NCBI RefSeq assembly: GCF_000455285.1 | Contig: NZ_HG005289.1 | Span: 207,120 to 252,487, forward strand | Direction: 5' to 3' | Origin: Candidatus Stoquefichus massiliensis AP9 | GTDB lineage: Bacteria; Bacillota_I; Bacilli_A; Erysipelotrichales; Coprobacillaceae | DNA: 45,368 nt | Shown here: one piece after another, positions 14,222 through 43,833 of the stretch | How the letters are laid out: every line of letters starts with the position of its first letter | How positions within the stretch are numbered: position 1 is the first letter of the stretch | The notes under the pieces: generated by a model | The model's database searches: none | Seen by the model: only the letters and a program-made list of their open reading frames with translations | What the model was told of the DNA's origin: nothing | Program-made: the position numbers and the translations under genes

Positions 14222-14235
14222 TAGGTCTTCGTTTT
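14204..14235 (+). terminator. Terminator between convergent kinase and LytTR genes
   Basis: Stem GAAGACC (14204-14210)/GGTCTTC (14224-14230), then GTTTTATT. The stem covers the kinase stop codon. The minus-strand side is followed by ATTTAATTT and may work weakly in that direction too. Confidence 0.65.
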
Positions 14236-14236
14236 A

Positions 14237-14944
14237 TTATTTATTGAGAAATTTATAAAATACTTTTTTAAATTCTTTATATTTCTTTCTTGAAATTTTT
14301 AACATTTCATCGTTGGACATAAAAACGAAATTTTGATCTAATGTTTTTATATGTGCTAAATTGATAGTAAAACTTCTTTGAATTTGAAAGAAATGATATT
14401 CTTGTAATTGTTCTCTATATTTGAGTATTGGTTTAAGTGAACCATAATACACACCTTTTGTTGTGTAAAGTTTATATCTTTTATAAGCAGATTCCAAGAA
14501 AATGATATCATGTATATTCATAACAATGTTTCCTACTGTTGTAGGAAATATCATTGTTTTTTGATAAAACTGATAGTTTTTGACTGCTCTTTTAAATTCA
14601 TTGTTAAATAGCTTTTCTTTAAGTGGTTTTTTCATATATTGAAATGCGTTTACAATATATGACTGATTAAAGTAGCTCATATGACTTGTTACAAAGATAA
14701 TCATACAACTTGGTTTAATATCATGAATATGCTTTGCTGTATTCATACCATTAATATCAGTTAATTCTATATCAAGGTATACAAGATCATAATCTTTTGT
14801 TTGAAATGTATGTAGTAAATCTTTGCCATTTTGAAAAGTATCTATATGAAAAGATAAATCAGAATATTGTTCTTCTAATTGCTGTATACGTGAGACTATA
14901 TCATGAATATAATATTCTTCATCATCACAAATTGCTATTTTCAT
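14237..14944 (-). CDS. LytTR-family response regulator (second)
   Basis: A 235-residue regulator from ATG 14944 (MKIAICDDEE), with AGGAGGAGAAC just upstream. The longer frame to 14974 only reads back into the previous gene. The receiver domain keeps D58 in LVYLDIEL, with the Ser/Thr and Lys of the switch (VTSHM, MKKPL). The LytTR domain carries IIFLESAYKRYKLYTTKG and FFQIQRSFTINLAHIK. It closely resembles the regulator at 12202. The start lies 20 bases inside the end of the upstream LytTR gene, so the two are coupled. No kinase gene is attached; the neighbouring GHKL kinase may serve it. Confidence 0.9.
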   Translation of the reverse strand: MKIAICDDEEYYIHDIVSRIQQLEEQYSDLSFHIDTFQNGKDLLHTFQTKDYDLVYLDIELTDINGMNTAKHIHDIKPSCMIIFVTSHMSYFNQSYIVNAFQYMKKPLKEKLFNNEFKRAVKNYQFYQKTMIFPTTVGNIVMNIHDIIFLESAYKRYKLYTTKGVYYGSLKPILKYREQLQEYHFFQIQRSFTINLAHIKTLDQNFVFMSNDEMLKISRKKYKEFKKVFYKFLNK

Positions 14945-15686
14945 TATGTTCTCCTCCTGCTTTCTTTTTTTCAATATATCTTAAAAACTCATCATAAAGT
15001 AAATGGTTTTTAATAAGTGTTTTACGACTTGTTGGAAAAACTTCTCTAGATTTTAAAATGACATTTCTATCTGTTAAAAAATCTATACACTTCATATTCA
15101 CAAGAACACTTTGATTGACTTGCATAAACCATCTTGACTTAAGTGCTGGTCTTAGTTTGTATCTGTTTTTAACATGTGTCATATAATGTTCATCTTTTAT
15201 AGTTACAATTTCTAAATCATTATAATATGTTTCAAAGTATTTAATTTCATCAACTGAGAATATGCGTTTTCTGCCTATATCACGTATTGGTACAACAAAT
15301 TTAATATTTTGTTCAAGATACCAATCCATTAAATAAGCAAAGACATCTCTAAACTGTTCTGTACTTATTGGTTTAAGAAGATATTCTCTCGCTTTAACTT
15401 GAAATGCTTCATAAATCATTCTGTACTGATCACTAATAAATACAACTTGGCATGCTGGATTCACTTCTTTTAATCTTTCTGCGACTTTGATTCCCTTCCC
15501 ATTTTCTACCTTCATTTCAATAAAGGCAAACTGATATGAATGTTCTTTAACGCTATCAATAAATTCATCAGTACTTGCATATGTATAGACTTTTAAATCT
15601 ATTTCTCTTTCATTAAAACATTCAATAATTTTCTTTTTGATTAAATTGAGATAATCTCTTTGATCATCACAAACCGCTATGTTCAT
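14925..15686 (-). CDS. LytTR-family response regulator with Glu at the phospho-acceptor position
   Basis: A 253-residue regulator from ATG 15686 (MNIAVCDDQ; SD GGGGAGG). The receiver fold is intact (CDD at 6-8, FISDQYR, LLKPIS), but the residue aligned with D57 of its neighbours is Glu: AFIEMKVENGKG at 54-65. Glu often mimics phospho-Asp, so this regulator may be constitutively active or independent of phosphorylation. The LytTR domain (about 150-245) has EIKYFETYYNDLEIVTI and WFMQVNQSVLVNMKCID. An in-frame upstream start at 15755 (MTEEQLFAK) is possible but lacks receiver homology. It leads a two-gene operon. Confidence 0.88.
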   Translation of the reverse strand: MNIAVCDDQRDYLNLIKKKIIECFNEREIDLKVYTYASTDEFIDSVKEHSYQFAFIEMKVENGKGIKVAERLKEVNPACQVVFISDQYRMIYEAFQVKAREYLLKPISTEQFRDVFAYLMDWYLEQNIKFVVPIRDIGRKRIFSVDEIKYFETYYNDLEIVTIKDEHYMTHVKNRYKLRPALKSRWFMQVNQSVLVNMKCIDFLTDRNVILKSREVFPTSRKTLIKNHLLYDEFLRYIEKKKAGGEHNENSNL

Positions 15687-15780
15687 TATAAAACCTCCCC
15701 TTCTTTTATGAACTAACGCATTACTTATTTTAGCGAATAATTGTTCCTCCGTCATTACACTTTTCTCCCATTTTAGGGTA

Positions 15781-15809
15781 TTTTTAGAATTTTTGGTATA
15801 TTTTGTCAA
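15781..15809 (-). promoter_or_regulatory. Promoter of the two-regulator operon
   Basis: Minus-strand TTGACA (15804-15809) is followed after 17 bases by TAAAAA (15781-15786), giving a leader of about 90 bases to ATG 15686. The -35 is consensus and the -10 is weak. Confidence 0.5.
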
Positions 15810-15839
15810 TAATTCTGATATTTAATTTTCAAATTTCAT

Positions 15840-15888
15840 TTGCAAAACGCAAGAAAATTACCTATTGCGAATTTTAATAGTGTATAAT
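15840..15888 (+). promoter_or_regulatory. XRE-gene promoter with candidate operators
   Basis: TATAAT at 15883-15888 stands about 20 bases before ATG 15909. Upstream are TTGCAAAACGCAA (15840-15852, TTGC/GCAA arms) and ATTGCGAAT (15864-15872, near-palindrome). These share the TTGCG core and are likely repressor half-sites in the divergent region between the XRE and LytTR genes. Confidence 0.45.
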
Positions 15889-15908
15889 AACAGCAAGGTG
15901 GTGAAATC

Positions 15909-16166
15909 ATGAGTATTGGAGAAAGATTAAGAACTTTAAGAGTTGAAGCTGGTCTATCACAAAAGCAAGTTGCTGAAACATTAAAAATGTCTAAGCCCAT
16001 TGTTTCACAATATGAATCTAATCAAAGAACTCCTTCTTTAGGTAAATTAATTCGTTTTTCACGTTTTTATAACGCTTCTTTAGATTACATTTGTGAAAAC
16101 GTTGATGAAAAAGGTGCATTTTTAGGTGATATTAAAGCCCTATTAGAAAAAACAAAAGACAAATAA
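15909..16166 (+). CDS. XRE-family transcriptional regulator
   Basis: An 85-residue protein that is almost entirely one Cro/C1-type helix-turn-helix. GERLRTLRVEAGLSQKQVAETLKMS is helices 1-2 and KPIVSQYESNQRTPSLGKL is the recognition region, followed by a short tail. SD AAGGTGGTG precedes the ATG. It is divergent from the LytTR operon and carries candidate operators in its own promoter, suggesting autoregulation and perhaps control of the LytTR genes. Confidence 0.9.
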   Translation: MSIGERLRTLRVEAGLSQKQVAETLKMSKPIVSQYESNQRTPSLGKLIRFSRFYNASLDYICENVDEKGAFLGDIKALLEKTKDK

Positions 16167-16172
16167 AGTCAC

Positions 16173-16207
16173 AAAAAGTTGTAACAATACAAGTTACAAC
16201 TTTTTAT
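16173..16207 (+). terminator. Terminator of the XRE gene
   Basis: Stem AAAAAGTTGTAAC/GTTACAACTTTTT (7-nt loop) with the T-run in the 3' arm, starting seven bases after the stop. Confidence 0.85.
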
Positions 16208-16387
16208 TACATATTTTTTTGACGAATCTGTCATTAATTCATTACAAAAATAGTAATTTTGTGTTTTTATCTTTAAAAGAATGACTTTACATATTATAAT
16301 TGTCTTGTCTTTAAAGATACAACGCATATACCAATTAATACACTCTTAAATAAAGAAAATGAACTTATAAAACAAAATAAATAGAAA

Positions 16388-16573
16388 GGGATTTTTCTCA
16401 TCAGCAACCTATGTTGTTATATGTAAGATATATTTATAAGTTGTGACTTAGCCTAAATGAACCTGGCTTCTTATGACTATAAATATATATGACAAATTAA
16501 ATCGATTTAACACTTGTCGCAGGATAAGAAAGGGCTGGAGTTTTATATAAACTTACTTCAGCCTTTTCGGCTA
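16388..16573 (+). ncRNA. Structured RNA, 6S-like candidate
   Basis: There is no reading frame here, but a single long hairpin can be drawn by hand. A closing stem pairs TTTCT (16394-16398) with AGAAA (16527-16531), ATC (16400-16402) with GAT (16523-16525) and GC with GC. A large central bubble contains, on its 3' side, the perfect palindrome TTAAATCGATTTAA (16497-16510). A terminal stem pairs TGT with ACA and ATATATTTAT (16428-16437) with ATAAATATAT (16479-16488), capped by AGCC/GGCT. This closing stem, bubble and terminal stem-loop plan is that of 6S RNA. A terminator follows and ATTATAAT near 16294 could be its -10. It could be another family of RNA. Confidence 0.45.
16532..16568 (+). terminator. 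Terminator ending the structured RNA
   Basis: Stem GGCTG (16533-16537)/CAGCC (16559-16563), extended by AGTTT/AAACT inside, followed by TTTT. Confidence 0.6.
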
Positions 16574-16581
16574 AAACAAAT

Positions 16582-16606
16582 GGAAGAGACCCTACAGACC
16601 TCTTCC
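16582..16606. terminator. GGAAGAG/CTCTTCC hairpin downstream of the nucleotidyltransferase
   Basis: Arms at 16582-16588 and 16600-16606. Read on the minus strand it is followed by ATTTGTTTT and may end the nucleotidyltransferase transcript about 85 bp after its stop. Confidence 0.45.
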
Positions 16607-16653
16607 AAAGTTGTTAAGTATTACAAACCGATATAAGTTTATCATATTTTTTT

Positions 16654-16683
16654 ATGAATGAAAATTATTTTCATTCATTTTTC
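16654..16683 (+). terminator. 12-bp inverted repeat with T-run
   Basis: ATGAATGAAAAT (16654-16665) and ATTTTCATTCAT (16667-16678) are perfect arms with almost no spacer, followed on the plus strand by T-rich sequence. It could stop plus-strand readthrough before it runs antisense into the nucleotidyltransferase gene. Confidence 0.5.
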
Positions 16684-16690
16684 AATTTCA

Positions 16691-17590
16691 TTATAATTGA
16701 TTAGGATAAACCCCTTTTTCTACTAATAATTGAATATTTTCTTTGACAAAGTCTTTATCTTCTTTATAAGTCACACCAAACCACTCATCTTGCGATTTAA
16801 GCACTTCTACGGATACTTTTCCTTCATGAAGTAAATCACCTATAATTGTTGGTAAAAGATACTCAGCCTTTAAATTTGAGCTGTCTAGAGCATTTAAAAA
16901 CTCATCAAATCCAGTTTCTAGTATATTAAAGAATTCTGGATAAAGTCCCCACATATTCATAGATACTGCAGATTCTAAATCAATTTCTCTTCCTTCAGTC
17001 ACTGCTTTCCCGTCTATCTTTTCAATGTTATGTGTTTCAACAATATCAACAAGCTTGTTATTTGGATCAACTTGACATATACCTCTTGTTACTCCACCAT
17101 TATCACTTAAAGTATTCTTCAATACAAAACCAACCATACAAATTGGTAAAACATCACTATGATGTTCTTGAATTAAGTACTGATAAGCTTCTTGATAAGC
17201 TTCTTTACCATAGTAATCATCAGCATTAATAACTAAGAATGGTTCATTGATCAAGTCTTTACAAGCTAGAATTGCTTGACCAGTTCCCCATGGCTTTGTA
17301 CGTTCTTTAAATCTTTCTTGATATTGGCTTGGAATATCTGTTAATTCCTGATAAGCATATTCAACATGAATCTTCTTTTTCATACGTTGTCCAATAATCT
17401 CATCAAAATCTTTTTCTAAATCTTTTCTAATAACAAAGACAACCTTATTAAAACCAGCTTCTATTGCATCATAGATGCTATAATCCATGATAATCTCACC
17501 ATTAGGTCCTACAGGTTCTAATTGTTTAATTCCTCCACCAAATCGACTTCCAATTCCAGCTGCCATGACAACCAAAGTTACATCTTTCAA
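16691..17590 (-). CDS. Sugar-phosphate nucleotidyltransferase
   Basis: A 299-residue NTP-transferase-fold enzyme. The N-terminal VVMAAGIGSRFGGGIKQL holds the nucleotide loop (GxGxRF..K), RTKPWGTGQAIL is the base-recognition segment and VINADDYYG carries the metal-binding Asp. It would make an NDP-sugar from a sugar-1-phosphate, but it differs from typical GalU and its sugar is unknown. I choose TTG 17590: AAGGAG lies nine bases before it and falls inside codons 2-3 of the alternative ATG 17608, which would have a leader of only about five bases from the promoter at 17620. It stands alone. Confidence 0.8.
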   Translation of the reverse strand: MKDVTLVVMAAGIGSRFGGGIKQLEPVGPNGEIIMDYSIYDAIEAGFNKVVFVIRKDLEKDFDEIIGQRMKKKIHVEYAYQELTDIPSQYQERFKERTKPWGTGQAILACKDLINEPFLVINADDYYGKEAYQEAYQYLIQEHHSDVLPICMVGFVLKNTLSDNGGVTRGICQVDPNNKLVDIVETHNIEKIDGKAVTEGREIDLESAVSMNMWGLYPEFFNILETGFDEFLNALDSSNLKAEYLLPTIIGDLLHEGKVSVEVLKSQDEWFGVTYKEDKDFVKENIQLLVEKGVYPNQL

Positions 17591-17619
17591 TTTTTTCAAC
17601 TCCTTCATAATATGTGAAT

Positions 17620-17648
17620 ATTATATCAAATATATATAATTTCTACAA
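17620..17648 (-). promoter_or_regulatory. Promoter of the nucleotidyltransferase gene
   Basis: Minus-strand TTGTAG (17643-17648), 17-base spacer, TATAAT (17620-17625). Its position supports the TTG 17590 start. I see no other signal in the AT-rich gap 17650-17870. Confidence 0.65.
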
Positions 17649-17873
17649 TCATATGAAAATTAATTATTACTTCTATTTAAAACAGTTATAAATTCTATTA
17701 TTAGATATATGATTCAAAATATGAATAACTGATATATTGTTATGACTTGCCAAATATAGCTATATACTTATCATAAGAACTTTCCTATAACAAACATAAT
17801 ATCAATTTTCCCTTAAACCACTTTACCAAAAAGTTTTACAAATTAAATCTATTGAATATAATAAAGTATTAAC

Positions 17874-17908
17874 AAAAAATAGTAGCAAACTTTTAGAGTT
17901 TACTACTA
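17874..17908 (-). terminator. Terminator of the second LCP gene
   Basis: Minus-strand stem TAGTAGTAAACT/AGTTTGCTACTA (one mismatch) followed by a T6 run. Confidence 0.8.
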
Positions 17909-17949
17909 CATAATTCTTAAAATTTAACAATTCGTTTAATTAAATATTC

Positions 17950-19389
17950 TTATTGAATTGGTTCGCCATTTAATACATTTTGAATAGCTTCCTTATTTTC
18001 CTTGACACTTGATTCATTAGGTAACATATAATAGAGTTTTCTACCTGGAATATATGCACCTCCTGTTAACATTGCTCCAGTTCCACTTAATTGTTTTGTT
18101 GCAAATGTCCAAGATGCCATATCATTCAATTGCATTTGAATAAGACTTGTAATCTCATTGGATTGCATATTTGTTTCAAAACATCCTTCAATAGAATTTA
18201 AAACACCATTATAATTCGTTAAAATAGCTGGAGACATCATTTTCTTTAACATTCCTGTTAAGACTCTCTGTTGATTAGCTACACGCCCATTATCGCCACC
18301 TGTAACTGTATAACGTGCTCTCGCAAAATAAAGTGCCTGATCTCCGTTTAACTGATTTTTACCTTTGACATAATGATATTGTCCTATTGAGAAATCTTCT
18401 ACTGATTCTACTTCAATACCACCTAAAGCATCTACCATTTGAATCAGCGATGTAAAATTAACACGTGCATAATAATTAATATCAATATTCATAAAAGATT
18501 CTACTGTTTTAACAGTATTTTCAATACCCGCTAATCCAGAATGTGTTAATTTATCCTTTTTACCTTTATTAGCTAAAGTTACATAATAGTCTCTAGGAAT
18601 ACTTGTCATTAAGATCTGTTTTGTCTTAGGATTAACAGTCACAATCATATTGACATCACTTCTAGATATTGTTGATACTTTACCAAAAGTATCAATACCA
18701 CTTATATATATAACAAATGGTTTTGATGTTACATCAACATCTTTTGAAAAATCCTCCAATTTTTTATCAATAGAATAAGACCATACAACCTTTGTATCTT
18801 CATTAAAACTTTCATAATCTGTTTCTAACATTGTACGATATGCTTCATTGACAAATATAGAATCACATTTGTTATCATATAAATCTTTTGCTAACTGGTG
18901 AAAATCATTCACTTCTAAAGATTCAAACGATTGATTTTCTTCTTTTAAAGCAGATAATGCTTTTGTAAAATATTGAAGATCTTCCTCCACATTCATAGCA
19001 ATCTTCTTATCAGTTAAATCTTTCACATCTTTTATCTGACTATCTTTCTTTGTGATAACGGAATATGTATATGTATCCTTATTTGCTCCAGAAATGCTTT
19101 CTAACGTAGAATCTCCTTTAGCAATATAAAATGATCCAACAACTAATAATAAACTTATAATCAAACTACACACTTTTCCAACAATTGTTTTTATTGAATT
19201 GTTTTGATCATTTCGCATAAGAAAGAACATTCCAACATCTAATAAACATATAATGCCAACAAGTATGCAAGCATACATCATTGGAAGTGCTCCTAATTTA
19301 AAGATAAAAAATATAAATATAATCGTTGCAACAATCTGTAAACCTAAAATGACAGGCATTGTTGTTAATTTTTTTATAAAATTTTTCAT
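17950..19389 (-). CDS. LytR-CpsA-Psr (LCP) family ligase
   Basis: A 479-residue membrane-anchored enzyme. Three hydrophobic segments fill about 10-105. An extracytoplasmic insert at about 110-215 has substrate-binding-protein-like features (KDSQIKDVKDLTDKKIA, DLYDNKCDSIFVNEAY). The LCP domain follows, with SRSDVNMIVTVNP, SIPRDYYV, RVNFTSLIQMVDALGG and the Arg-rich ARARYTVTGGDNGRVANQQR. LCP enzymes transfer undecaprenyl-linked polymers such as teichoic acid or capsule to peptidoglycan. It is a close paralogue of the gene at 19519-21003. Its own terminator follows. Confidence 0.92.
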   Translation of the reverse strand: MKNFIKKLTTMPVILGLQIVATIIFIFFIFKLGALPMMYACILVGIICLLDVGMFFLMRNDQNNSIKTIVGKVCSLIISLLLVVGSFYIAKGDSTLESISGANKDTYTYSVITKKDSQIKDVKDLTDKKIAMNVEEDLQYFTKALSALKEENQSFESLEVNDFHQLAKDLYDNKCDSIFVNEAYRTMLETDYESFNEDTKVVWSYSIDKKLEDFSKDVDVTSKPFVIYISGIDTFGKVSTISRSDVNMIVTVNPKTKQILMTSIPRDYYVTLANKGKKDKLTHSGLAGIENTVKTVESFMNIDINYYARVNFTSLIQMVDALGGIEVESVEDFSIGQYHYVKGKNQLNGDQALYFARARYTVTGGDNGRVANQQRVLTGMLKKMMSPAILTNYNGVLNSIEGCFETNMQSNEITSLIQMQLNDMASWTFATKQLSGTGAMLTGGAYIPGRKLYYMLPNESSVKENKEAIQNVLNGEPIQ

Positions 19390-19477
19390 TTAAATCCATC
19401 TCCCCTTTACTAAGATGTACTTATAATATCACAAAAATGTGTATAAGTTGTATCTTTTATAAATAATTTTCTTCTAC

Positions 19478-19510
19478 ATAAAAAGAAGCATCTATTATTA
19501 AGACACTTCT
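19478..19510 (-). terminator. Terminator of the first LCP gene
   Basis: Minus-strand stem AGAAGTGTCT/AGATGCTTCT (with a central mismatch/wobble) followed by T5, a few bases after the stop. Confidence 0.65.
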
Positions 19511-19518
19511 CTCTTTTT

Positions 19519-21003
19519 CTATTCAGATACAGTAATCTTTTCTCCATTCATCATTTTTTTAATTAATGATGTACAAGAACTTACACTCTTATCATCTGGA
19601 ATCATATAATATAATTTGTTATTAGGCATATATGCTCCACCTGTCATAGACTGACCATGACCACTTAATTGAATTTGATGAATATCCCATGATGACATAT
19701 CATTTAATTGCATTTGGATTAAATCAGTAATTTCACCTGAAGCCATGTTTGTTTCAAATGACCCTGCAATAGAATTTAAAATTCCATTGTAATTCGTAAT
19801 AATAGCTGGTGACATGGCTTTCTTTAACATTGCTGTTAAAACACGTTGCTGGTTTTTAACACGATCATTATCACCATTTGCTAAACCATAACGTTCTCTT
19901 ACAAATCCTAATGCTTTATTACCATCCATTTGATTATCACCTTTAACAATCTTATATTGCCCATGCATAGTAGTAAAAGCAACTGGTGAATTAACAGTAA
20001 TACCATCTAAAGCGTCTACCATTTTAATAAGTGATGTAAAGTTGACTCTTGCATAATAATTAATATCAATTCCTAAGAAATTTTCAAGCGTTTTAACAGA
20101 GTTTTCAACGCCTGCAAGTCCTGCATGTGTCAATTTATCTTTTTTATCTTTATTTGCTAAAGTCACATAATAATCTCTAGGGATACTTGTCATTAAAATT
20201 TGTTTTGTCTTTGGATTTACTGTAACTAACATATTGACATCTGATCTTGATACAGTAGATACTGGCCCAGTTGTATCAATACCACTAATATAAATAGTAA
20301 ATAATTTTTCAGTTACATCCACATTTTTAGAAATATCTTTAACTGTCTCAGTAATATCATAATGCCAGATTTCTCTTGTTTCATTTGCAAAATTTTCATG
20401 ATTAGCTTCTAAATTAATATAATAAGCTTGATTGACAAGAATAGCTGGAGTTTTTCCACTGTATAAATCATCAGCCATCTTTTCAAAATCTTTAACATCA
20501 TTTGTTTTAATAGAAGATTCTGCTTTCTTTAACTCATCTAAAGCTTTACTCATATTTTCTTCATCAACAGCATTATTAACTTCTATAGTTTGATTTTTTA
20601 AATCAGAAATTTCTTTATATTGACTATCATTTAATACAAGAAGTGACATTCTTGTTGTTTGAGTATTTGCTCCAGAAATCAAATCAAGTACTGAATTTCC
20701 TTTTGCAATATAAAGTGATCCAACTAATAGTAATACACTTAATATTAAACTCACTACTTTTCCAACAATATTTCTAACATTTCCCTGACCTTTCTTTGAG
20801 GAAGGTTTCATTAAGAAAAATGTTCCAACACACAATAACACAACAAGTGCAATAAGAATTAATAAATATTTCATAGGTAATGCATTTAATCTAAATAATA
20901 ATGCAATTAATGCGATTGAAGCAATAGCTTGTATTGCAATAACAACTTGCCATGATGTTACTTTTTGTATAAGATTATTTGTATTTTTAGCTTTTTTAGC
21001 CAT
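19519..21003 (-). CDS. LytR-CpsA-Psr (LCP) family ligase (paralogue)
   Basis: A 494-residue paralogue of the downstream LCP protein. I start at MAKKAKNTNN (21003), with AGAGGG eight bases upstream; the frame extends to 21060 without such a site. Three membrane segments (about 20-125) are followed by an insert with LNDSQYKEISDLKNQTIEVNN and LYSGKTPAILVNQAYY, then the LCP core: SRSDVNMLVTVNP, SIPRDYYVTLANK, RVNFTSLIKMVDALDG and VRERYGLANGDNDRVKNQQR. It is expected to anchor wall polymers. The pair lies downstream of the polysaccharide locus and probably completes attachment of its product. Confidence 0.92.
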   Translation of the reverse strand: MAKKAKNTNNLIQKVTSWQVVIAIQAIASIALIALLFRLNALPMKYLLILIALVVLLCVGTFFLMKPSSKKGQGNVRNIVGKVVSLILSVLLLVGSLYIAKGNSVLDLISGANTQTTRMSLLVLNDSQYKEISDLKNQTIEVNNAVDEENMSKALDELKKAESSIKTNDVKDFEKMADDLYSGKTPAILVNQAYYINLEANHENFANETREIWHYDITETVKDISKNVDVTEKLFTIYISGIDTTGPVSTVSRSDVNMLVTVNPKTKQILMTSIPRDYYVTLANKDKKDKLTHAGLAGVENSVKTLENFLGIDINYYARVNFTSLIKMVDALDGITVNSPVAFTTMHGQYKIVKGDNQMDGNKALGFVRERYGLANGDNDRVKNQQRVLTAMLKKAMSPAIITNYNGILNSIAGSFETNMASGEITDLIQMQLNDMSSWDIHQIQLSGHGQSMTGGAYMPNNKLYYMIPDDKSVSSCTSLIKKMMNGEKITVSE

Positions 21004-21078
21004 TTTATCCCTCTTTTCTTTAAACGAGAACATATTAGCATATTCATGTGTACTTTTCAAGAATTTATAGATTCTCTA

Positions 21079-21980
21079 TTATATTTGTGGTGATTTTAAT
21101 TTGTTTAATTGAGTTTTCTTAATATAAAAAGAAGAATGGACATATATATTGAGAGTTGTATTAACTGATGAATGCCCTAATATTTCACTTAAACTTTTAA
21201 TATCTACATTTGATTGAACACATCTCGTCGCAAAAGTATGTCTTAATACATGAAAATGGTAATCTTTAATTTTAATTTCATGTAAGATCTTTTTAAAATA
21301 ATATTGATATGTACGTGGGTCTAAGTAATGTTCTGTTCCGGTAATGACATATCCTTTAGGATTTCTTACACTTTTTAAAATATGGTATAAAACATTATTT
21401 ATTGGTATTTCTCTTATAGAGTTTTGTGTTTTAGGAATTCCTATCTCTGTATAACTTTTTCCATTTTCGCTTATTCTTTGAATTGATTTATTGATAAGAA
21501 TCCTTTGTTCAATTAAATCAATATCCGTCCATTGTAAAGCACAAATCTCACCTAATCTCAAACCAGTATATAAACAAATCATAATTCCAATATTGCGATA
21601 ATTTAAATGTTGAATGATATAGTTTTCAAGACAATATAATTCTTTTTCTTCAATAGTAATAACTTTATGCTTTAATACCTTAACTGAAGGAATAGCTTTT
21701 AAAGGTATACACCTATATCCAATAATATTCCCGTAATACAATATACTTTTCAAAACAACAAGTATATCCTGTAACGTCTTATTAGATATCCCCTTATCTA
21801 TCTTATCAATAAAATCAATAATGTTCATTACTGTAATTTCTGATACATAATAAAATCCTAAATAAACATCTATGTACTTCTCAATAATCCTTTTATATTG
21901 AAGCAATGATGTTTTTTTATTTTCTTTTCCTTATATTTTAACCATATCTTTGATAACTCCATAATACTCATCTTTTCCAT
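21079..21980 (-). pseudogene. Tyrosine recombinase, split by a -1 frameshift at an A7 tract
   Basis: The C-terminal frame (21079-21906) has the full catalytic set: Arg in TGLRLGEICAL, HxxR in HVLRHTFATR, His in LGHSSVNTT and the nucleophile Tyr in NIYVH. Upstream, ATG 21980 with SD GAGGTG opens the missing N-terminus MEKMSIMELSKIWLKYKEK in the other frame. The frames join at A7 (21912-21918), read ATA AAA AAA CAT. A -1 slip there gives KK-TSLLQYKRIIEKYI, a normal core-binding domain, and a product of about 300 residues. It could be a 1-nt deletion, programmed frameshifting or a switchable tract. Families like this integrate elements or invert DNA segments. Confidence 0.75.
21912..21918 (-). 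promoter_or_regulatory. A7 slippery tract (A AAA AAA) in the recombinase gene
   Basis: In the upstream frame the codons are ATA AAA AAA CAT, so the heptamer fits the X XXY YYZ rule for -1 frameshifting, and the -1 frame is exactly the one needed. No obvious stimulatory hairpin was found downstream by eye. Confidence 0.5.
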
Positions 21981-22048
21981 AATTTTTCACCTCATTTCTA
22001 TAGTAATACATTCGTAAAGTATATTCATTATGGAAAGGAATGATATTC

Positions 22049-22225
22049 ATGAAAATATGTCTAGTAGGTTCTAGTGGTGGACATTTGACACATTTATATT
22101 TACTAAAACCAACGTGGGAAAAATATGACAGATTTTGGGTGACTTTTGATAAAGAAGATTCAAGAAGTATGTTAAAAGACGAAAAAATGTATCCGTGTTA
22201 TTTTTCAGCCTTTTCTTTTTTATGA
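22049..22225 (+). pseudogene. Truncated Alg14/PssD-like glycosyltransferase subunit
   Basis: The first about 50 residues match the N-terminus of the Alg14/PssD/EpsE-type UDP-GlcNAc transferase subunit: KICLVGSSGGHLTHLYLL (glycine loop), then FWVTFDKEDSRSMLKDEK and YPCY. The family has about 150 residues; here homology stops near 22200 and the frame ends in SAFSFL. SD AAAGGA precedes ATG 22049. It is the only plus-strand gene piece in this stretch, divergent from the recombinase, and looks like the remnant of an older capsule operon cut off by rearrangement. Confidence 0.75.
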
Positions 22226-22302
22226 TATTTTTATTTTGCTCCTTTTCTATTTCATGATGTTATTCTATAATAGACTTATATATCTACTATTCTTTAGAAA
22301 GA

Positions 22303-22347
22303 CAAAAAAAGATAGAAATCTCCCCGACCAAAGTTTGATTTCTATCT
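22303..22347 (-). terminator. Strong terminator on the minus strand
   Basis: Stem AGATAGAAATC (22310-22320)/GATTTCTATCT (22337-22347), 11 bp. On the minus strand it is followed by seven T. It shields the recombinase and LCP genes from the polysaccharide operon. Confidence 0.8.
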
Positions 22348-22478
22348 GTTCCATTGAACAATATGATTCTAATAAAAATTAATCCAAATTTCAAGTCTAT
22401 TAATCAAAAAATATATAATAAATATACGAATCGCTCTTTTCTCAATCATAAAAGTGTCTTACGTGCTTTTTTATCCGA

Positions 22479-22525
22479 ATAAAAAGATTAGCTATATTTC
22501 AAGTAAAGTATTACAGCTAATCTTT
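22479..22525 (-). terminator. First terminator after the choline cassette
   Basis: Stem AAAGATTAGCT (22483-22493)/AGCTAATCTTT (22515-22525). On the minus strand it is followed by T-rich TTATTC. With the hairpin at 22303 it forms a double terminator. Confidence 0.65.
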
Positions 22526-22842
22526 ATTTTCTTATCTTAAATTGACGACATTAACTATCTCTAATTCTATTTTAACACATATTTACAACATATTCCTAAT
22601 TATTTAACTAGATAATTATTTAATCTTTAGTGAAGAGATATTACAATCAACATCAATTAATTGATGCCTTTACTATCAAAAATTTATTACTACGTTTTCT
22701 TAATACAATATATAAAAAGAAAATTTTTTTAGTGATATTCAACTAAATCTAATAATACAAAAACTATTACTAAATTATAAATATATTAATGTTAATTCGC
22801 AAATATTATAAGAAATCATATTGTTTGAATTTTAAAAACAAA

Positions 22843-24393
22843 TTAGTCTTTTTCACAATTTGCTTCATTCAACTCTATATTATATTTTTTTAAATCTTTG
22901 ATAAAACTAATAGAAATGAGTATTATAACAATAGCAATTGGAAATGCCGCAATAATACTTACAGACTGCAAATTAGTCATTGAGCTATCAGAAAACAGAA
23001 GAGCAATCGGTAAAAGAATAAGTAATATACACCACATAAGTTCAATAATTTTATGTGGCTTTTCACCTTCCCCCAATCTATGATAACTGTAACATGATGC
23101 AATTAAAGCAATAGAATCAAAAGATGTGGCATAAAACGCAATCATTGTAATTAAAAGTAGTATTAATATAAAATTTGAGGCTGGTAATGTCCGAATAATT
23201 GTAATAATAACTTGGTATAAATCTCCTGTTGATTGATACAAGGCAATTAAATCACATCTCCCTGACATTTGTACACCTAAAGAATAATTTCCTAGGATAA
23301 TAAAGCTAATTAATGTTGAGCCGACCCCGAAGACATATCCTCCTAAAATAACTTGTTTGATAGTTCTTCCTTTCGAAATGCTTCCAATAAAGAAAGGCGC
23401 AGCCACGCACCAAACCATCCAATATGCCCAATAGAATATTGTCCAATTTTGAGGAAATGATGTTGATCTTTGCGGATCAGTAAATGTTGCTAATTCAATA
23501 AAATTTTGTATCATTCTTCCTAATGAAGAAAAACCCGTCTCTATAATATATTTTGTTTCTCCACTAAAGAATAATACAAATGCTAAAAGAGTGAAAAACA
23601 AATATATGCAAACTTTAGCAAGAAAACTAATACCTTTTATTCCATGAAGAAGTGCATATGTATAAATAATACATGTAACAATTAAAATAGTAATTGTTAC
23701 AACGGTTCTATCTATATTTATATTAAATAATTCATTGATGATACTTGACATCAATGGTGTTGCTAATGTAAATGTTGTTGCTGTTCCTGCAATTAATGCA
23801 AAAACTGCCAACAAATCAATAAATCGTCCTATAAATCCATTAGTATGATTTCCTAGTAACGGTCGGCATGCTTCTGAAAACTTCTGCCTATTTCTTTTTC
23901 TTACATGTAACATAAATCCAAATGCAACTGCTAATACTAAATAAAATCCCCATGGGATAAGGCTCCAATGAAATAGTGGAAAGACACTAGACCAGTCTTG
24001 GATACTTCCTAGTTCAGCAATATGGGGATCCGTTGCATATAATATCCATTCCGAAAATGAATAGAATAAAATATCAGCGGCTAATCCAGCAGTAAACATC
24101 ATTGCTCCCCACGCAAAAAAAGAATACTTTGGTTTTTCGTCTGGTTTCCCTAGGCGTATATCTCCGAATTTAGAAAAAGTAATAAATATAGATAAGATAA
24201 ATATACCTAAACCTATTATCAAATAATATACACCTAATGTATCTCCTAAAAAAAATCGTATTTGACTTAATACCCTATTTGATTTATTAGGCATATAGAA
24301 GAACAAAATGCAGAGAATAATAATTAGTGATAATGGAAATAGAGTTATCATCCAGTCTATCTGTTTTTTATCCATTTTTTTATGATTTACCAT
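22843..24393 (-). CDS. BCCT family transporter (choline/betaine type)
   Basis: A 516-residue, 12-helix secondary transporter. The BCCT signature is visible in FYWAYWMVWCVAAPFFIGSISKGRTIKQ (about 315-342), with the preceding SGETKYIIETGFSS and the N-terminal KPKYSFFAWGAMMFTAGLAADILFY region. BCCT proteins take up quaternary amines such as choline, carnitine or betaine. It starts four bases after the LicC stop and is the last gene of the choline cassette, so choline is the likely substrate; in streptococcal lic loci this role is filled by the unrelated LicB. SD GGAGG is 11 bases before ATG 24393. Confidence 0.9.
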   Translation of the reverse strand: MVNHKKMDKKQIDWMITLFPLSLIIILCILFFYMPNKSNRVLSQIRFFLGDTLGVYYLIIGLGIFILSIFITFSKFGDIRLGKPDEKPKYSFFAWGAMMFTAGLAADILFYSFSEWILYATDPHIAELGSIQDWSSVFPLFHWSLIPWGFYLVLAVAFGFMLHVRKRNRQKFSEACRPLLGNHTNGFIGRFIDLLAVFALIAGTATTFTLATPLMSSIINELFNINIDRTVVTITILIVTCIIYTYALLHGIKGISFLAKVCIYLFFTLLAFVLFFSGETKYIIETGFSSLGRMIQNFIELATFTDPQRSTSFPQNWTIFYWAYWMVWCVAAPFFIGSISKGRTIKQVILGGYVFGVGSTLISFIILGNYSLGVQMSGRCDLIALYQSTGDLYQVIITIIRTLPASNFILILLLITMIAFYATSFDSIALIASCYSYHRLGEGEKPHKIIELMWCILLILLPIALLFSDSSMTNLQSVSIIAAFPIAIVIILISISFIKDLKKYNIELNEANCEKD

Positions 24394-24397
24394 AATG

Positions 24398-25108
24398 CTA
24401 TTTTCCTCCTATATAACTTGGATCTAAATTAATGAGTTGTTCAAAATCATCTATTTCTATGATATCATTTTCTTCCATTTGCATGATACCTAGCTGATAT
24501 TCATTAAAATAACAAAATAACACTATATCATCCCAATAAATTTTATGATTTTTGTGAATTTCAAATTCTATTTCAAGATGATTCTTCAATTTTTTTGCAT
24601 CATTTTTAGACCATCTAGAAATACTATACAACTGCCATCCATGTTTACCACCAATACGTGAACATCTTTTAATTATATTGTTTTCTAGTTCAAGAAGCCA
24701 CTCATCTGTTTCTCCCTCGCACCAAATACAATTATATCCTGATCTAATAAATTCTTTTTTTAATATATTAGGATTGTATATAATCTGATCCCCATCTAAA
24801 ATAATTGCATCTTCGAGATAATTTCTTGCAACATATAACGATGAGATATTATTACAAGTATCAAAATAAGGATTTTCAATAAATGTAATGTTATCATACT
24901 TATCCAATAGGACTTTAAATTCACTTTTTAAATAACCTACCACGATATATATTTCATATATATCGTTTTCATATAGTGCATCAATTATAGTTTCTATCAT
25001 TCTTTTCCCATTAACATTTATTAATGGTTTAGGCGTAGTCAGACTAACTGGTTGCAATCGTGTTCCTTTACCTGCTGCCAAGATAATTGCTCGTTTTACT
25101 ATATTCAT
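24398..25108 (-). CDS. licC: CTP:phosphocholine cytidylyltransferase (LicC-like)
   Basis: A 236-residue nucleotidyltransferase. RAIILAAGKGTRLQPV with TTPKPLINVNG gives the complete nucleotide loop and catalytic Lys. NNISSLYVARNYLEDAIILDGDQI is close to the LicC pattern around the metal-binding Asp, and YWDDIVLF is typical of the C-terminus. It would make CDP-choline from phosphocholine and CTP. It overlaps the upstream LicA-like fusion gene by four bases (ATGA) and precedes the BCCT gene, so three steps of choline use are coupled. The choline assignment rests mainly on this context. Confidence 0.85.
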   Translation of the reverse strand: MNIVKRAIILAAGKGTRLQPVSLTTPKPLINVNGKRMIETIIDALYENDIYEIYIVVGYLKSEFKVLLDKYDNITFIENPYFDTCNNISSLYVARNYLEDAIILDGDQIIYNPNILKKEFIRSGYNCIWCEGETDEWLLELENNIIKRCSRIGGKHGWQLYSISRWSKNDAKKLKNHLEIEFEIHKNHKIYWDDIVLFCYFNEYQLGIMQMEENDIIEIDDFEQLINLDPSYIGGK

Positions 25109-26865
25109 ATATTACTCCTTTCAATAAATTTCATTGCATAGTAATAATATTCTTTTGCATATCGATACTGTATCAAAGAATATTCTCCGAATTCTACTCC
25201 CAAATGATATTTATACTCACACCAATTACTCCATAATAATCCACATGTAGCAATATAACAATAAATTTTCAAACGTATACTATCGAGACATTGATTTTCA
25301 AAATATATATCAATCAATTGATCAATTTGTTTTTTATCGTACATAGCATATATACAAAACATAGCAATATCAACATGTGCATCTTGCATTGCTGCATATT
25401 CCCAATCAATCAATTTTATTTTTTTCTCATTTTTATCTTGATAGATAAGAAAATTATCTGGAACAGCATCGATATGCGTTAATGTCCACACTTTAGGAGA
25501 ATTATCAATAATCGTTTTTAACTTAAATACATTTTGTTTAGTCTCTTCATAATCTGGATATAGAGAATTACCATTTCTTAATTTTTCATAAAAATCAATT
25601 TTTTTATACAAATTAAAACAATGATCCACTTTTATATTCAAAGAATGAAAATTCTTTAAAAATTTCATACAATTTTTTAAGTCTTCTAAATTTACTGGAT
25701 TACATACTTTTGAATTATTAATATATTTAGTTAATTTATATCCATTATTTTTATCAAAGTAAATGACTTCATCACAAATGTGTAAATGATTAATTTTTTT
25801 GTAGACTTCTCCTTCCTCATAACGATTAATTAATTTATTGGTACCTTCACCAGGAATTCTCATAATATATTTTTGATCATTAGTTTCAAACATAAATGAT
25901 CTATTTGTCATTCCTTTTTTTGATAATGTAATATTTTTAATATCTAAAATATTAATATTTAAACTATTTAGTATAATTTGAATAATATCAGAATAAAGAC
26001 TATTAGAATTTGGATCTAAATCTCTTAAATCCTTAAAAGTATTGATTTCTTTAGATTTACCTTTAATAGTTTTATTATAAATATCTACATTTGAGTTGCC
26101 AATAATAATATCTTCCCAATAATAATGTTTTCTAAGAAAATAAGAATCATTTAATTTGTCAAATTGATTTTTTATTACAATTGAATCTTCATAATTTAAA
26201 TAAGCGATACTTAATGGTTTGTTACTAATATCCTTTTTGTTTTTTATAATTACTTTTTGATTTCTAAGTGACATATATTTTGTAATAACTTTTTGATTAG
26301 CATCAAACAAATACCAAGAGTTTAATTCAATATTATGAAATGGGTTTTCTTGGAACCATATGTCACTAGGTACAATGTATGAATTATGTAAATATTCTCT
26401 TGCCAAATATAAAGAATAGATATTATTTGTTTCCAAATATCTATTATTGACTATAAGATGTATACCATATTTGTCAATAAGGTGTTCATACTGTTCTTTC
26501 ATATATCCTACTACTATATGAATTTCCGTAATACCAACATTGTGGAGCTTTTCAATAATATTTTCTGTAATTGTTTTTCCATATATTTCAACAAATCCTT
26601 TTGGCATATCTTTATTAATTGGTGTCATTCTTAGTCCAATCCCTGCCGCAAGTATAATTGCATTAGTTGGCCTATTTTTATTAATCATTTTTATTGAGAT
26701 ATTAGTAATTTCATTATTATATGATAAATACTTTTTCTCTTTTAAAATTTTAATATTTTTATTAATTGTTCCTAAAGAACAATTTAAATCGCTAGACATT
26801 TCTCTTTGAGTATAATGCGGATATTGATATAGCTTTTTTATTATATTTAAAGCAATTATGTTCAT
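25105..26865 (-). CDS. Winged-HTH / LicC-like nucleotidyltransferase / LicA-like choline kinase fusion
   Basis: A 586-residue, three-part protein from ATG 26865. Residues 1-60 form a winged helix-turn-helix (LYQYPHYTQREMSSDLNC, SLGTINKNIKILKEKKYLS). Residues about 65-290 are a nucleotidyltransferase (AIILAAGIGLRMTPINKDMPKGF) with Leu where LicC has Thr in GxGTR. Residues about 300-586 are a choline kinase-like fold with the Brenner motif LTHIDAVPDNFLI and IKLIDWEYAAMQDAHVDIA. It would phosphorylate choline, and perhaps also carry out or regulate the cytidylyl step. The DNA-binding domain suggests self-regulation. The next gene is a separate LicC. Confidence 0.85.
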   Translation of the reverse strand: MNIIALNIIKKLYQYPHYTQREMSSDLNCSLGTINKNIKILKEKKYLSYNNEITNISIKMINKNRPTNAIILAAGIGLRMTPINKDMPKGFVEIYGKTITENIIEKLHNVGITEIHIVVGYMKEQYEHLIDKYGIHLIVNNRYLETNNIYSLYLAREYLHNSYIVPSDIWFQENPFHNIELNSWYLFDANQKVITKYMSLRNQKVIIKNKKDISNKPLSIAYLNYEDSIVIKNQFDKLNDSYFLRKHYYWEDIIIGNSNVDIYNKTIKGKSKEINTFKDLRDLDPNSNSLYSDIIQIILNSLNINILDIKNITLSKKGMTNRSFMFETNDQKYIMRIPGEGTNKLINRYEEGEVYKKINHLHICDEVIYFDKNNGYKLTKYINNSKVCNPVNLEDLKNCMKFLKNFHSLNIKVDHCFNLYKKIDFYEKLRNGNSLYPDYEETKQNVFKLKTIIDNSPKVWTLTHIDAVPDNFLIYQDKNEKKIKLIDWEYAAMQDAHVDIAMFCIYAMYDKKQIDQLIDIYFENQCLDSIRLKIYCYIATCGLLWSNWCEYKYHLGVEFGEYSLIQYRYAKEYYYYAMKFIERSNI

Positions 26866-26911
26866 TATGATAATACACCTCCATATTAATGAACAACACA
26901 TCACCAAATAA

Positions 26912-26928
26912 AGGTCAACATATGACCT
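26912..26928. promoter_or_regulatory. Palindrome AGGTCA-N5-TGACCT upstream of the choline cassette
   Basis: Six-bp perfect arms, 47 bp before the fusion-gene ATG. On the minus strand the right arm reads TTGACC and could serve as a -35 element. This is a candidate operator for the fusion protein's own winged-HTH domain; binding is inferred only. The rest of 26,929-27,040 shows nothing I can name. Confidence 0.4.
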
Positions 26929-27055
26929 CGATTTTAAGATGAAGTATGTTTATAATTTATTTATATATGAAACAGTACACAATACATATCTTATTAATTT
27001 CATTACATACCGTTTTAGTTAAATATTTGCTCATCTAATTTATCAAATAAACTCC

Positions 27056-27625
27056 CCCAGGTAGAACCCACAAATGTCTCCCAGACATTTGTGACGGGGT
27101 ATTTGAAAACATTGTGATTACAATCTTAAGAGTATTTGTTCATAAGAATCTTGTTTACCTTAATTCTTGACATATTCTTTGATTGTTTTCTCACTTGTAT
27201 TCTTTCCACAACTCGAAACAAAAAATCCGCCGCTCCAAAAACTTCCACCCCATAATACCTTCTTAACTTCAGGATGTTCAGCAAATATGCGTTTTGCCGT
27301 TGTACTTTTTATTGTTATTATAATTTTGTTGGACTATACTCAGGTAATGACTGAATAAGAAAATGAACATGATCTTGGTCTGCTCCAATTTCTAGAAATG
27401 TAATCCAATCATATCTTGTTTCTATTCCCTCGCATATTTGCTTTAAACTCTTGTCTACATATTGTGTTATCACCACGCGACGATATTTCGTTGGGCATAC
27501 AAAATGGTAAACAAGATTTGAAACATTATGTGAATTGTGTATAAACATACTATCTGGCATTCGTAATCACCCCAAAGTTATATAATAACTTTAGGCGCTA
27601 CGCCACAAGCAGTGGGGAAATGCCC
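27056..27625 (-). mobile_element. IS200/IS605-type insertion sequence (tnpA only), inactive
   Basis: Contains a frameshifted Y1 transposase gene and subterminal hairpins. At the transposase 3' side is CACAAATGTCT-CCC-AGACATTTGTG (27069-27093). At the 5' side are AAAGTTAT/ATAACTTT (27574-27592) and GGCG/CGCC (27594-27604). There are no terminal inverted repeats and no tnpB, as expected of IS200 types. The exact cleavage ends are estimates. It lies between the choline cassette and the transferase-like genes. Confidence 0.7.
27160..27560 (-). pseudogene. tnpA: IS200/IS605 TnpA (Y1 HUH transposase), frameshifted
   Basis: The N-terminal frame (27560-27318) reads NLVYHFVCPTKYRR and then the HUH motif DHVHFLIQSLPEYSP. 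It stops early because the A-run at 27324-27327 has four A where five would keep the frame. The other frame then continues with TAKRIFAEHPEVKKVLW, GGSFWSGGFFVSSCG and the region of the catalytic Tyr (TIKEYVKN) to the stop at 27160. Restored length is 133 residues, normal for TnpA. A one-base deletion has inactivated it unless frameshifting occurs. Confidence 0.8.
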
Positions 27626-27629
27626 AAGA

Positions 27630-27658
27630 GTTAAAAGTATTCATTGGATACTTTTAAC
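27630..27658. terminator. Hairpin after the transferase-like gene
   Basis: Arms GTTAAAAGTAT and ATACTTTTAAC (11 bp) with a 7-nt loop, 26 bp beyond the stop of the gene at 27684. It lacks a good T-run on the minus strand, so termination may be weak; it may also mark the edge of the IS insertion. Confidence 0.4.
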
Positions 27659-27683
27659 TTATTATAAATAGTAGTCTATTTTT

Positions 27684-28688
27684 TTAATCTAATCTTTTTC
27701 TAATATCATTTAATAAATTGATAGGTGAAAATTCATTTTGATAATTGTAGTTTACTATACTTTTTTCTCTTACCCAATTCCAATCAATGTCATTTACGTC
27801 TTTAAAATATTGTATGTATTTTTCGTTATAAAATGATAATTTAAGAATCGATGGATTATTTGTTAATAATTTTTTATTATATACTATAGCTTCATAAGCT
27901 CTTAAAGTTAAACCTACTTGTTTAGATCTAACAATATCTAAAATGCAATTTGCTTCCAATGTTTTAGAAATAATTTCATCATATTCCATAATATCTTCTT
28001 TAGAATGTAAAATTACATTATAATCTATATCTTTCAAGATGGTGTTGTTTGGATCAACTATAACGTCCATAGTTACATTGACATTAAATTTTTTTGATAT
28101 CTCAATTAACTTTTTTAATATTGCACCTCTATCCGATTCAACACCTGCAAAGTATAAATCTTTATTAATATCAAATTTTTTATCCAAAAGTTTAGAATAT
28201 GGAGTTTGCCAAAATATAAGATTATTCTTCGCTGCATCATCAGAATCAAAAGTGTAAGTTAAATCAAATATTTTGTTATTAAGTAAATAATTCGCATATT
28301 TTGATACTTCTCTAGAAGCAGAATCAATATAAAAAATAATATATCTTAAATTATTAAACTGTTGCTTCAACCTTTCTAAAAACCTTAATGGATATCTTGA
28401 TGTTGTAAATGTTGTATTTAAAAATATAACATAAATTTTTTTATATTTATTATTTATTTTGTAAATTTCTTTATAAAGATTATACTTTTCTATAAACAGG
28501 AAGTTTAATTTCCCTTGTGTGAACGATTGTACCTTTCTACGTCCTAATATATTGGAAACTAATCCTATAGAGTTTTCTTTTACGATTGTCAATTGTTTTT
28601 TGTCACTTAAAATATCTTTAAACATTCTTTCTTCAAGTATATTTGCCTCTCTAATATTGTTTTGTACAAAAATAAAATAATCAGTCAT
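27684..28688 (-). CDS. Putative polysaccharide glycosyltransferase-like protein (paralogue 2)
   Basis: A 334-residue soluble protein from ATG 28688 (MTDYFIFVQNN; SD AAAGGAG). I do not recognise a named family. The C-terminal half has a GT-B-like sequence: DLYFAGVESDRGAILKKLIEI, then LEANCILDIVRSKQVGLTLRAYEAIVYNKKLLTNN, which is the sort of nucleotide-sugar-binding segment seen in capsule transferases. It is clearly related to the upstream gene across this region. The start overlaps the previous stop by eight bases. It probably acts on the surface polysaccharide; donor and acceptor are unknown. Confidence 0.7.
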   Translation of the reverse strand: MTDYFIFVQNNIREANILEERMFKDILSDKKQLTIVKENSIGLVSNILGRRKVQSFTQGKLNFLFIEKYNLYKEIYKINNKYKKIYVIFLNTTFTTSRYPLRFLERLKQQFNNLRYIIFYIDSASREVSKYANYLLNNKIFDLTYTFDSDDAAKNNLIFWQTPYSKLLDKKFDINKDLYFAGVESDRGAILKKLIEISKKFNVNVTMDVIVDPNNTILKDIDYNVILHSKEDIMEYDEIISKTLEANCILDIVRSKQVGLTLRAYEAIVYNKKLLTNNPSILKLSFYNEKYIQYFKDVNDIDWNWVREKSIVNYNYQNEFSPINLLNDIRKRLD

Positions 28689-29676
28689 TAGATACTCCTT
28701 TCTGTTTTTCCAATTGTTCAATTCTTTCTAATATTCTAATTGGTGAAAAAACATTATTATTTTTATACTGTACATTTTCTTTTTTTAAAAGAAAATCAAT
28801 ATTAATATCCTCAGTTTTTTCAAAAATTTGCATATATCTACTATCATAAAATGGCATTTCTGATAAAAAACTATTATTAGTTAATAATTTTTTATTAAAC
28901 ATAATTGCTTCACATGTTCTTAAAGTAATACCTGTTTGTCCATCACGCAATATTTCAATAATACAATTTGTATTATATGATCTTATCAAATCTTCTTGAA
29001 AAGATAATCTTTCATTATATGTAACTCCTCTAATTTTTTCTTGTTTTGAGAGTGGAACTTCAGTAATAAAAAAAGAACAATTAGGTAAAATATTTGATAT
29101 TTTCTTAAAAACTTCTTGAAGTTTATTAATGCGCCCACAACCGCTACCAATAAAAAAAGCATCACTTTTTTTATTGGTATCTTCACTTATGTTTTTAGGA
29201 AAAGATAAACAATTATAAAAATATTCTAGTTTATATCTCTCGCAGTCATTTTTATCAAAAGAAAATTTATAATCAAACAAAGCTAATAAATCATAGGAAC
29301 GTCTTGCGCCTGGATATTTTGAAGAATCAAATATAAGCAAAGCAAATTTGACATTAGCATGCTTCTTTTTTATTTGTAATAAATAATCTTTTTCAAAATG
29401 TTTCCTTAAAGATCCATTCATAAATATTACACAATAATTCTCGTTTGGGTCAAAATCATATTTATGAAGTTCATAAAATGGATACCAGATTTGTTTAAAT
29501 GGTAATGGAATACGCTTATTAATTCTATCATCATAATGTAAATTATATATTTTTTTTAAAAAAGAAGGTATCTTCATCCTTTGTAATTCTACAACATCAT
29601 AGATATTTTGTATAAATAAATCATTCATCATTGCTCTATATAACTCATGTTCATCATTTATCATTATATATTTCAT
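28681..29676 (-). CDS. Putative polysaccharide glycosyltransferase-like protein (paralogue 1)
   Basis: A 331-residue protein from ATG 29676 (MKYIMINDEHELY; GGAG is five bases upstream; GTG 29694 is an alternative). Like the downstream gene it has a divergent N-terminal half and a conserved C-terminal half: DAFFIGSGCGRINKLQEVF, then NTNCIIEILRDGQTGITLRTCEAIMFNKKLLTNN and MPFYDSRYMQIF. The two look like an old tandem duplication. No promoter was recognised; the region upstream is decayed insertion-sequence DNA, so this gene pair may depend on readthrough or on a hidden promoter. Confidence 0.7.
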   Translation of the reverse strand: MKYIMINDEHELYRAMMNDLFIQNIYDVVELQRMKIPSFLKKIYNLHYDDRINKRIPLPFKQIWYPFYELHKYDFDPNENYCVIFMNGSLRKHFEKDYLLQIKKKHANVKFALLIFDSSKYPGARRSYDLLALFDYKFSFDKNDCERYKLEYFYNCLSFPKNISEDTNKKSDAFFIGSGCGRINKLQEVFKKISNILPNCSFFITEVPLSKQEKIRGVTYNERLSFQEDLIRSYNTNCIIEILRDGQTGITLRTCEAIMFNKKLLTNNSFLSEMPFYDSRYMQIFEKTEDINIDFLLKKENVQYKNNNVFSPIRILERIEQLEKQKGVSND

Positions 29677-29699
29677 TTTTACTCCATTCTCCACACCTT

Positions 29700-30748
29700 G
29701 TTGTGTGGCACAAATATTTTTTGAAAGATGTCCTACTTACGCTATGCTTCCTTTTATCCCAATACTACAATATAAGAGAACTAGTATACTACAAAGCATG
29801 TAAAGGTGAGTAGATAGTCTTTTATCTTTTTGATTTAAGACTAATCTGTATATCTATAAATTGCTGTCACAAATAATTGAGGGGGAGGTTAGAGCTCAAA
29901 CACTTATCATTGATATATAATCATTTGGTCATATTGCTGGATGACAGTCAATGGCATTCTTGACTCTGTATCCTCAGATTCTTTAGGAAAAAGTAGCCGT
30001 ACTGTCCTAGAACAAGTTATGAGTTCTAACATGATTACAAAGAAAATATTGGAAAATTACTTCTTAAATTTGGGATAAGAACATGGTTATAATGGTTATT
30101 CAATATTCACATATTAAAACTGCAAACGTCTCGAATTAAAATGTGCTATGAAGTATCTTAATAATTTTAATAAGAATATTTATGGTTTTGAATTGGAAAT
30201 AATTAAACAAAGTGAATTTTTCATTGACATCAAAGAATATATCCCTCAACAGCTGAGTTAGAGTGTCTCTCAAAATAATGGAGATATTGATAAAAAGAAA
30301 TCAATTCATATATTAAAATTTGGACAATATATCAAACCTACCCTTGATTGATGTACCTGTTATTGTATAGTAGTAAGACATATTTTAAAGTTAAATATAA
30401 TAGAATACAGAAAAAATATAGTCACAATAAAACGATAATGATCATAGACAGAATATTTCTTATTTCATCCTATCATTTGGTCAAAACGAGTGAAAATTTT
30501 AATCCATAAAATTATGACTGCTTTAAAAAACCAAGATTAAATCAATCAAAGATTATATCAAAACAAATTCTTTAAAATTTTCACATGTAGAGATTTTTCA
30601 AATCCAAATAACAGAAATTTAACAAGACTGTTAATCATTTACGTTAAAGTTTTTAAAAGACTATAATTTCGACTTATTTATAAGTCATCTTTTATTGATT
30701 GTATCATTCATTTTGTTCTTTTAACAAAATCAGATGGTATCAAAAAAG
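29700..30748 (+). pseudogene. Decayed transposase region, probably IS110-like
   Basis: No open frame longer than about 60 codons remains. Pieces on the plus strand, in shifting frames with stops, resemble a transposase. 29940-30250 gives QSMAFLTLYPQIL, LELKCAMKYLNNFNKNIYGFELEII and DIKEYIPQQLS. 30384-30510 gives KVKYNRIQKKYSHNKTIM and IDRIFLISSYHL, followed by FNP. The last resembles the C-terminal end of IS110-type transposases (R..RRGHK.AI......L...YH). The family is tentative. The relic separates wzx from the two transferase-like genes and breaks the operon. Confidence 0.4.
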
Positions 30749-33162: not shown

Positions 33163-33173
33163 TTTTTTCTCCT

Positions 33174-34199: not shown

Positions 34200-34212
34200 A
34201 CTTTTCCCCTTT

Positions 34213-36388: not shown

Positions 36389-36433
36389 AAAAACACCTCT
36401 TTTCAAAATTATAATATATTCTAAGTTAAATAC

Positions 36434-43829: not shown

Positions 43830-43833
43830 TTAT

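Follow-up and report, generated by a model that had tools for sequence, protein, structure and literature searches.

A frameshifted tyrosine recombinase and a probable capsule-switching inversion in Candidatus Stoquefichus massiliensis AP9

Introduction

A tyrosine recombinase gene that lies beside a capsule locus and is split between two reading frames raises two questions: which DNA does such an enzyme rearrange, and does the split reflect programmed recoding or simple mutation? The gene considered here (positions 21,079 to 21,980) belongs to a stretch of 45,368 nt from Candidatus Stoquefichus massiliensis AP9 (contig NZ_HG005289.1, 207,120-252,487), hereafter the window.

A recombinase in two reading frames

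The gene and its frame junction are as follows.

21079-21980, minus strand: frameshifted tyrosine recombinase gene (PF00589), made of an ATG frame (21980-21870) and a catalytic frame (21930-21079)
21912-21918, minus strand: A7 tract where the frames meet; two intact homologues have A8 and a degenerate one (genome G029) has A7

GAGGTG lies at good spacing before the ATG at 21980 (minus strand), which opens a frame that reads MEKMSIMELSKIWLKYKEKKIKKHHCFNIKGLLRST before a stop at 21870. The catalytic frame, -1 relative to it, is open from 21930 to 21079 and encodes a 275-aa part of a phage-integrase family tyrosine recombinase (PF00589 match of 98 bits). The A7 tract, in the codons ATA AAA AAA C, falls within the stretch of about 61 nt common to both frames. 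A first-pass annotation had described a start codon with a good Shine-Dalgarno (SD) sequence opening the N-terminus, a catalytic part in the -1 frame with both sides open, and A7 in the register of an X XXY YYZ heptamer. All of this is found in the sequence, but the A AAA AAA register is commonplace and no more than chance gives: it occurs in frame in 18 of the 37 tracts of A7 or longer of the intact minus-strand genes of the window. In the window as a whole, A7 is slightly rarer than in shuffled sequences (74 found, 101 expected).

The nearest intact recombinases come from Massilimicrobiota timonensis (57% identical; L044 and G004) and from a second genome of that genus (G005, 55%). Both are encoded in a single frame with ATA AAA AAA ACA, i.e., A8, so that the window gene is one base short compared with each of them. 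Their common N-terminus, M(T/M)F.ELSMIWL.YKSYTIKKTS, agrees with the peptide of the ATG frame of the window. A third homologue, in G029, is the sister of the window gene in the tree (support 98/96) and likewise has A7. It has lost its start region, contains two stops and has damaged catalytic motifs, and is an obvious pseudogene. This dead gene may have contracted to A7 independently, or the change may be old and common with the window; owing to the damage, its A7 says nothing of function. In the same-genus genome G001, the best match is 40% identical, hence no close orthologue, and the recombination site described below is absent. A scan of viral contigs with the recombinase protein and the 19-base site gave no match, and recombinases from plasmid and phage records were all less than 60% identical (at most 44% among the matches listed).

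Inverted sites bounding the capsule genes

The first-pass annotation had proposed a search for inverted repeats around the polysaccharide promoters. A 31-bp pair bounds 16.4 kb of capsule genes:

22011-22041, minus strand: predicted recombination site, left arm of the 31-bp inverted repeat, with the core AATGAATATACTTTACGAA at 22011-22029
38415-38445, plus strand: predicted recombination site, right arm of the inverted repeat, with the core at 38427-38445

The arms match at 30 of 31 positions and are the sole pair in 29 kb with an exact 16-base seed. A repeat scan of 14000-25500 alone did not find the site because its partner lies at 38.4 kb. The 19-base core has exactly two copies in the 3.5-Mb genome, in opposite orientations, and no others at zero or one mismatch. 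Among 315 genomes of the order, six carry it with at most one mismatch, and the same 19 bases are found directly upstream of the recombinase gene in relatives. In the window, the left site lies 5' of the recombinase gene, whose start codon is 30 nt away, and separates it from the plus-strand stump of an Alg14-type gene. The right site lies between the genes of a priming sugar transferase (38450-39799) and a DUF1972 glycosyltransferase (37245-38408). The locus thus combines two features of DNA inversion systems, inverted repeats that bound a segment and a recombinase gene beside this segment, frameshifted here but intact and adjacent to the site in two relatives. The surrounding features are:

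22011-38445, no strand: proposed invertible segment (16.4 kb) holding the capsule operon, from the inverted repeat and the comparison with M. timonensis
22040-22225, plus strand: stump of an alternative operon, consisting of the initial ~55 codons of an Alg14-type gene, with 89% identity to M. timonensis before it diverges
22843-37261, minus strand: remaining capsule operon genes as now oriented (BCCT transporter, two NTP transferase/choline kinase-like proteins, broken flippase, GT2 pair, Wzy-like protein, Caps_synth, LicD)
37245-38408, minus strand: DUF1972 glycosyltransferase, first operon gene now behind the transferase, 83% identical to its M. timonensis counterpart, which faces the recombinase there
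38450-39799, minus strand: priming sugar-phosphate transferase (Bac_transf/EPS_sugtrans), fixed flank upstream of the site
40087-45349, minus strand: fixed upstream genes RmlA, RmlC, RmlB, GH25 and RmlD, common to M. timonensis except GH25
17950-21060, minus strand: two LCP (LytR-CpsA-Psr) genes, fixed flank on the recombinase side

Besides these genes, the segment shows other particularities. The flippase gene (Polysacc_synt; 30749-32186, minus strand) is split at an (AT)7 repeat (31671-31684) into an N-terminal part (31668-32186) and a C-terminal part (30749-31420) in two frames, so that the locus may hold a second frameshift or contingency tract at a simple repeat. The presence inside the segment of genes for a BCCT transporter, an NTP transferase, a choline-kinase-like protein and LicD (22843-26907, 36434-37261) suggests that the capsule could be decorated with phosphocholine.

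The site is also seen in other genomes. In another genus, it adjoins a transferase gene (L088, G024:C111; L093, G025:C154); the G024 contig starts 34 bases before the site, and a more distant recombinase gene, cut at its 5' end, opens another contig (L089). In G005, a different gene start, glycosyltransferase-like, lies behind the site (MKIEIICPLYNAE; L087, G005:C74, 1-58), so the interior operons vary between species and the site is kept.

Exchange of segment interiors in Massilimicrobiota

The comparison with M. timonensis reveals that both interior arrangements occur between related species. One of its contigs carries RmlA/C/B/D and the transferase gene, the site, and then Alg14-Alg13-GT2; another carries the LCP genes and the recombinase gene, the site, and then DUF1972. 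The fixed flanks are alike in the window and in M. timonensis, and the interiors are exchanged exactly at the repeats. The exchange point includes a common CCTTTCC, in which the next gene likely has its ribosome-binding site. Such swapped ends are what a reciprocal inversion at these sites would give, and can be read as the signature of an invertible segment choosing the capsule operon. We infer one segment with convergent operons, the two M. timonensis contigs not being joined. A further M. timonensis contig, with its own flippase and a UDP-sugar dehydrogenase, could continue the Alg14 operon.

In G005, the recombinase contig starts at the first base of the common repeat (CCTTTCCTA followed by the core) and a second contig starts 58 bases before the transferase-side site; these breaks fit a mixed population without proving it. 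Searches for Alg14 and DUF1972 homologues in G005 and G024 found none, so the interiors there differ or are missing.

The idea of an inversion near the polysaccharide genes, put forward in the first-pass annotation, therefore holds for the kind of event, given the unique 31-bp repeat and a relative with the swapped arrangement. It does not hold for the inversion of a promoter, since the sites enclose a 16-kb biosynthetic block behind a fixed transferase gene.

A proposed switch and its decay

Taken together, the gene quite probably encodes a recombinase dedicated to switching capsules by DNA inversion, put out of action when its A8 tract lost one base. The rhamnose genes upstream and the priming transferase gene would stay fixed, while the recombinase would cross two inverted sites of 19-31 bp, one directly behind the transferase gene and the other directly upstream of its own gene. 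The 16-kb flip would place one of two oppositely oriented capsule operons, DUF1972-first or Alg14/Alg13-first, downstream of the transferase gene, and the other operon would then point away from it. This supposes that the recombinase acts on these two sites and that capsule expression follows the orientation of the segment, both of which we infer.

In this genome, the DUF1972 operon would be in the reading position and the Alg14 operon deleted to a stump, in which 54 codons are kept at 89% identity to M. timonensis, with divergence thereafter. As nothing remains of the Alg14 operon beyond about 55 codons, a flip would at present lead to nothing but an off state; the switch may therefore no longer be under selection, which agrees with the broken recombinase gene. 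As translation of the enzyme would end after 36 residues, the segment can probably no longer turn, and the switch looks decayed and phase-locked. In G029, a degenerate copy of the site (AGAGAATATAATTTATGAA; L019/L090) and the recombinase pseudogene persist between capsule and LCP genes, probably as remnants of a second decay of the switch.

Origin of the frame break

Programmed frameshifting, slippage and mutation had all been proposed for the A7 tract. Mutation is the best supported of the three because the two intact homologues carry A8, in frame. The simplest reading of the sequence is a recent one-base contraction disabling the enzyme, and the frameshifted gene presumably makes no useful product. 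All 275 codons of the catalytic part of the window gene are free of stops, against an expectation of about 46 per unit of neutral divergence, and its dN/dS relative to intact genes is about 0.25-0.32; the enzyme therefore worked until recently, or works still. A dead gene would thus have been lost only recently, at a neutral divergence under about 0.07. The open catalytic frame and the A7 shared with G029, which could mean that this tract is old, both count against a disabling contraction.

It is unlikely, in our view, that some enzyme still arises through slippage on A7, either of the ribosome (-1 frameshifting) or during transcription, at a low level that would throttle the inversion rate. 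The A AAA AAA heptamer is slippery in E. coli, and genes with a programmed -1 frameshift, such as dnaX and those of IS elements, join a heptamer of this type to an SD-like motif about 10 nt upstream. The window gene resembles them by its heptamer, which has exactly this register and lies in the zero frame with both frames open, and by an SD-like AAGG 10 nt upstream of it. A weak stem (-12.9 kcal/mol, z -1.7) is predicted just downstream, but it overlaps the heptamer instead of starting 5-8 nt past it. The stop-free catalytic frame, with its dN/dS like that of intact genes, and the A7 common to the supported sister in G029 are also what maintained recoding could leave. However, the A7 of such a degenerate gene is uninformative, and the same register is seen in about half of the long A tracts of ordinary genes (18/37). 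Neither the shift site nor the need for a shift is kept in the functional homologues of M. timonensis and G005, which have A8, need no shift and are devoid of the AAGG motif. The tract, whose absence from homologues the first-pass annotation would have counted against programmed frameshifting together with the lack of a frameshift product, is thus kept in the degenerate homologue and not in the intact ones, and beyond the heptamer, the unconserved SD-like motif and the degenerate A7 homologue, nothing positively supports programmed frameshifting. A more specific proposal, quite unlikely as well, is that A7 is old and shared with the G029 lineage, that slippage by the ribosome or the RNA polymerase has kept the recombinase functional, and that the rate of this slippage sets the rate of capsule switching.

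A further possibility is a contingency locus, in which slippage of replication between A7 and A8 would turn the recombinase off and on within a population. Homologues have either A8 or A7 at this position, and the locus has a second broken gene, that of the flippase, interrupted at (AT)7, against 82 unbroken conserved genes elsewhere in the genome. We nevertheless hold this to be very doubtful: A7/A8 is short for a contingency tract, and the intact conserved genes of this genome contain 57 A7/A8 tracts with no breaks. These figures come from a frameshift survey of 400 kb of this genome against 800 kb of the same-genus G001, which yielded 82 well-covered conserved genes (95 kb). The loss of a base from an intact gene by sequencing or assembly error is highly improbable because, although homopolymer indels are the commonest error on several platforms and the flippase gene of the same locus has a second simple-repeat indel, all 82 of these genes are unbroken despite their A7/A8 tracts.

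Comparison with known systems and significance

The one-base contraction of the recombinase gene is in itself an ordinary frameshift. Several known systems are comparable to the switch proposed around it. In the vpma/Xer1 system of Mycoplasma agalactiae, a site-specific recombinase encoded next to the locus inverts DNA and thereby changes the expressed surface gene, but the units are single lipoprotein genes with many sites, whereas the window has two sites around a capsule operon of about 16 kb; mutants without Xer1 show phase-locked expression, the outcome to be expected from a broken recombinase (PMC2268961). In Eggerthella lenta (PMC13174815, preprint 2026), inversion at a short inverted repeat (16 bp) likewise alters the expressed capsule clusters. 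These inversions run over megabases between clusters far apart, and their breakpoints lack a recombinase gene, whereas the window has a local segment with its own recombinase gene. In the same way, site-specific inversion controls the capsule loci of Bacteroides fragilis (Mpi, Tsr19; PMC3090145, PMC5903667), but there the promoter turns and each locus is on or off, whereas in the window the biosynthetic genes would turn and the upstream part would stay.

A partial literature search found no paper on this switch in Erysipelotrichales, nor any case of a local biosynthetic segment turned behind a fixed transferase gene by its own tyrosine recombinase. Inversion of capsule promoters and very large capsule-linked inversions are already known, and we rate the local version with biosynthetic genes as a variant of these.

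If the proposed switch is real, some Erysipelotrichales gut bacteria would have two capsule structures to choose from and would select one by inverting 16 kb of biosynthetic genes behind a fixed transferase gene, a local, recombinase-encoded counterpart of the capsule inversions of E. lenta recently tied to phage evasion. The window would then be a naturally phase-locked case, to be set beside the intact switch of Massilimicrobiota.
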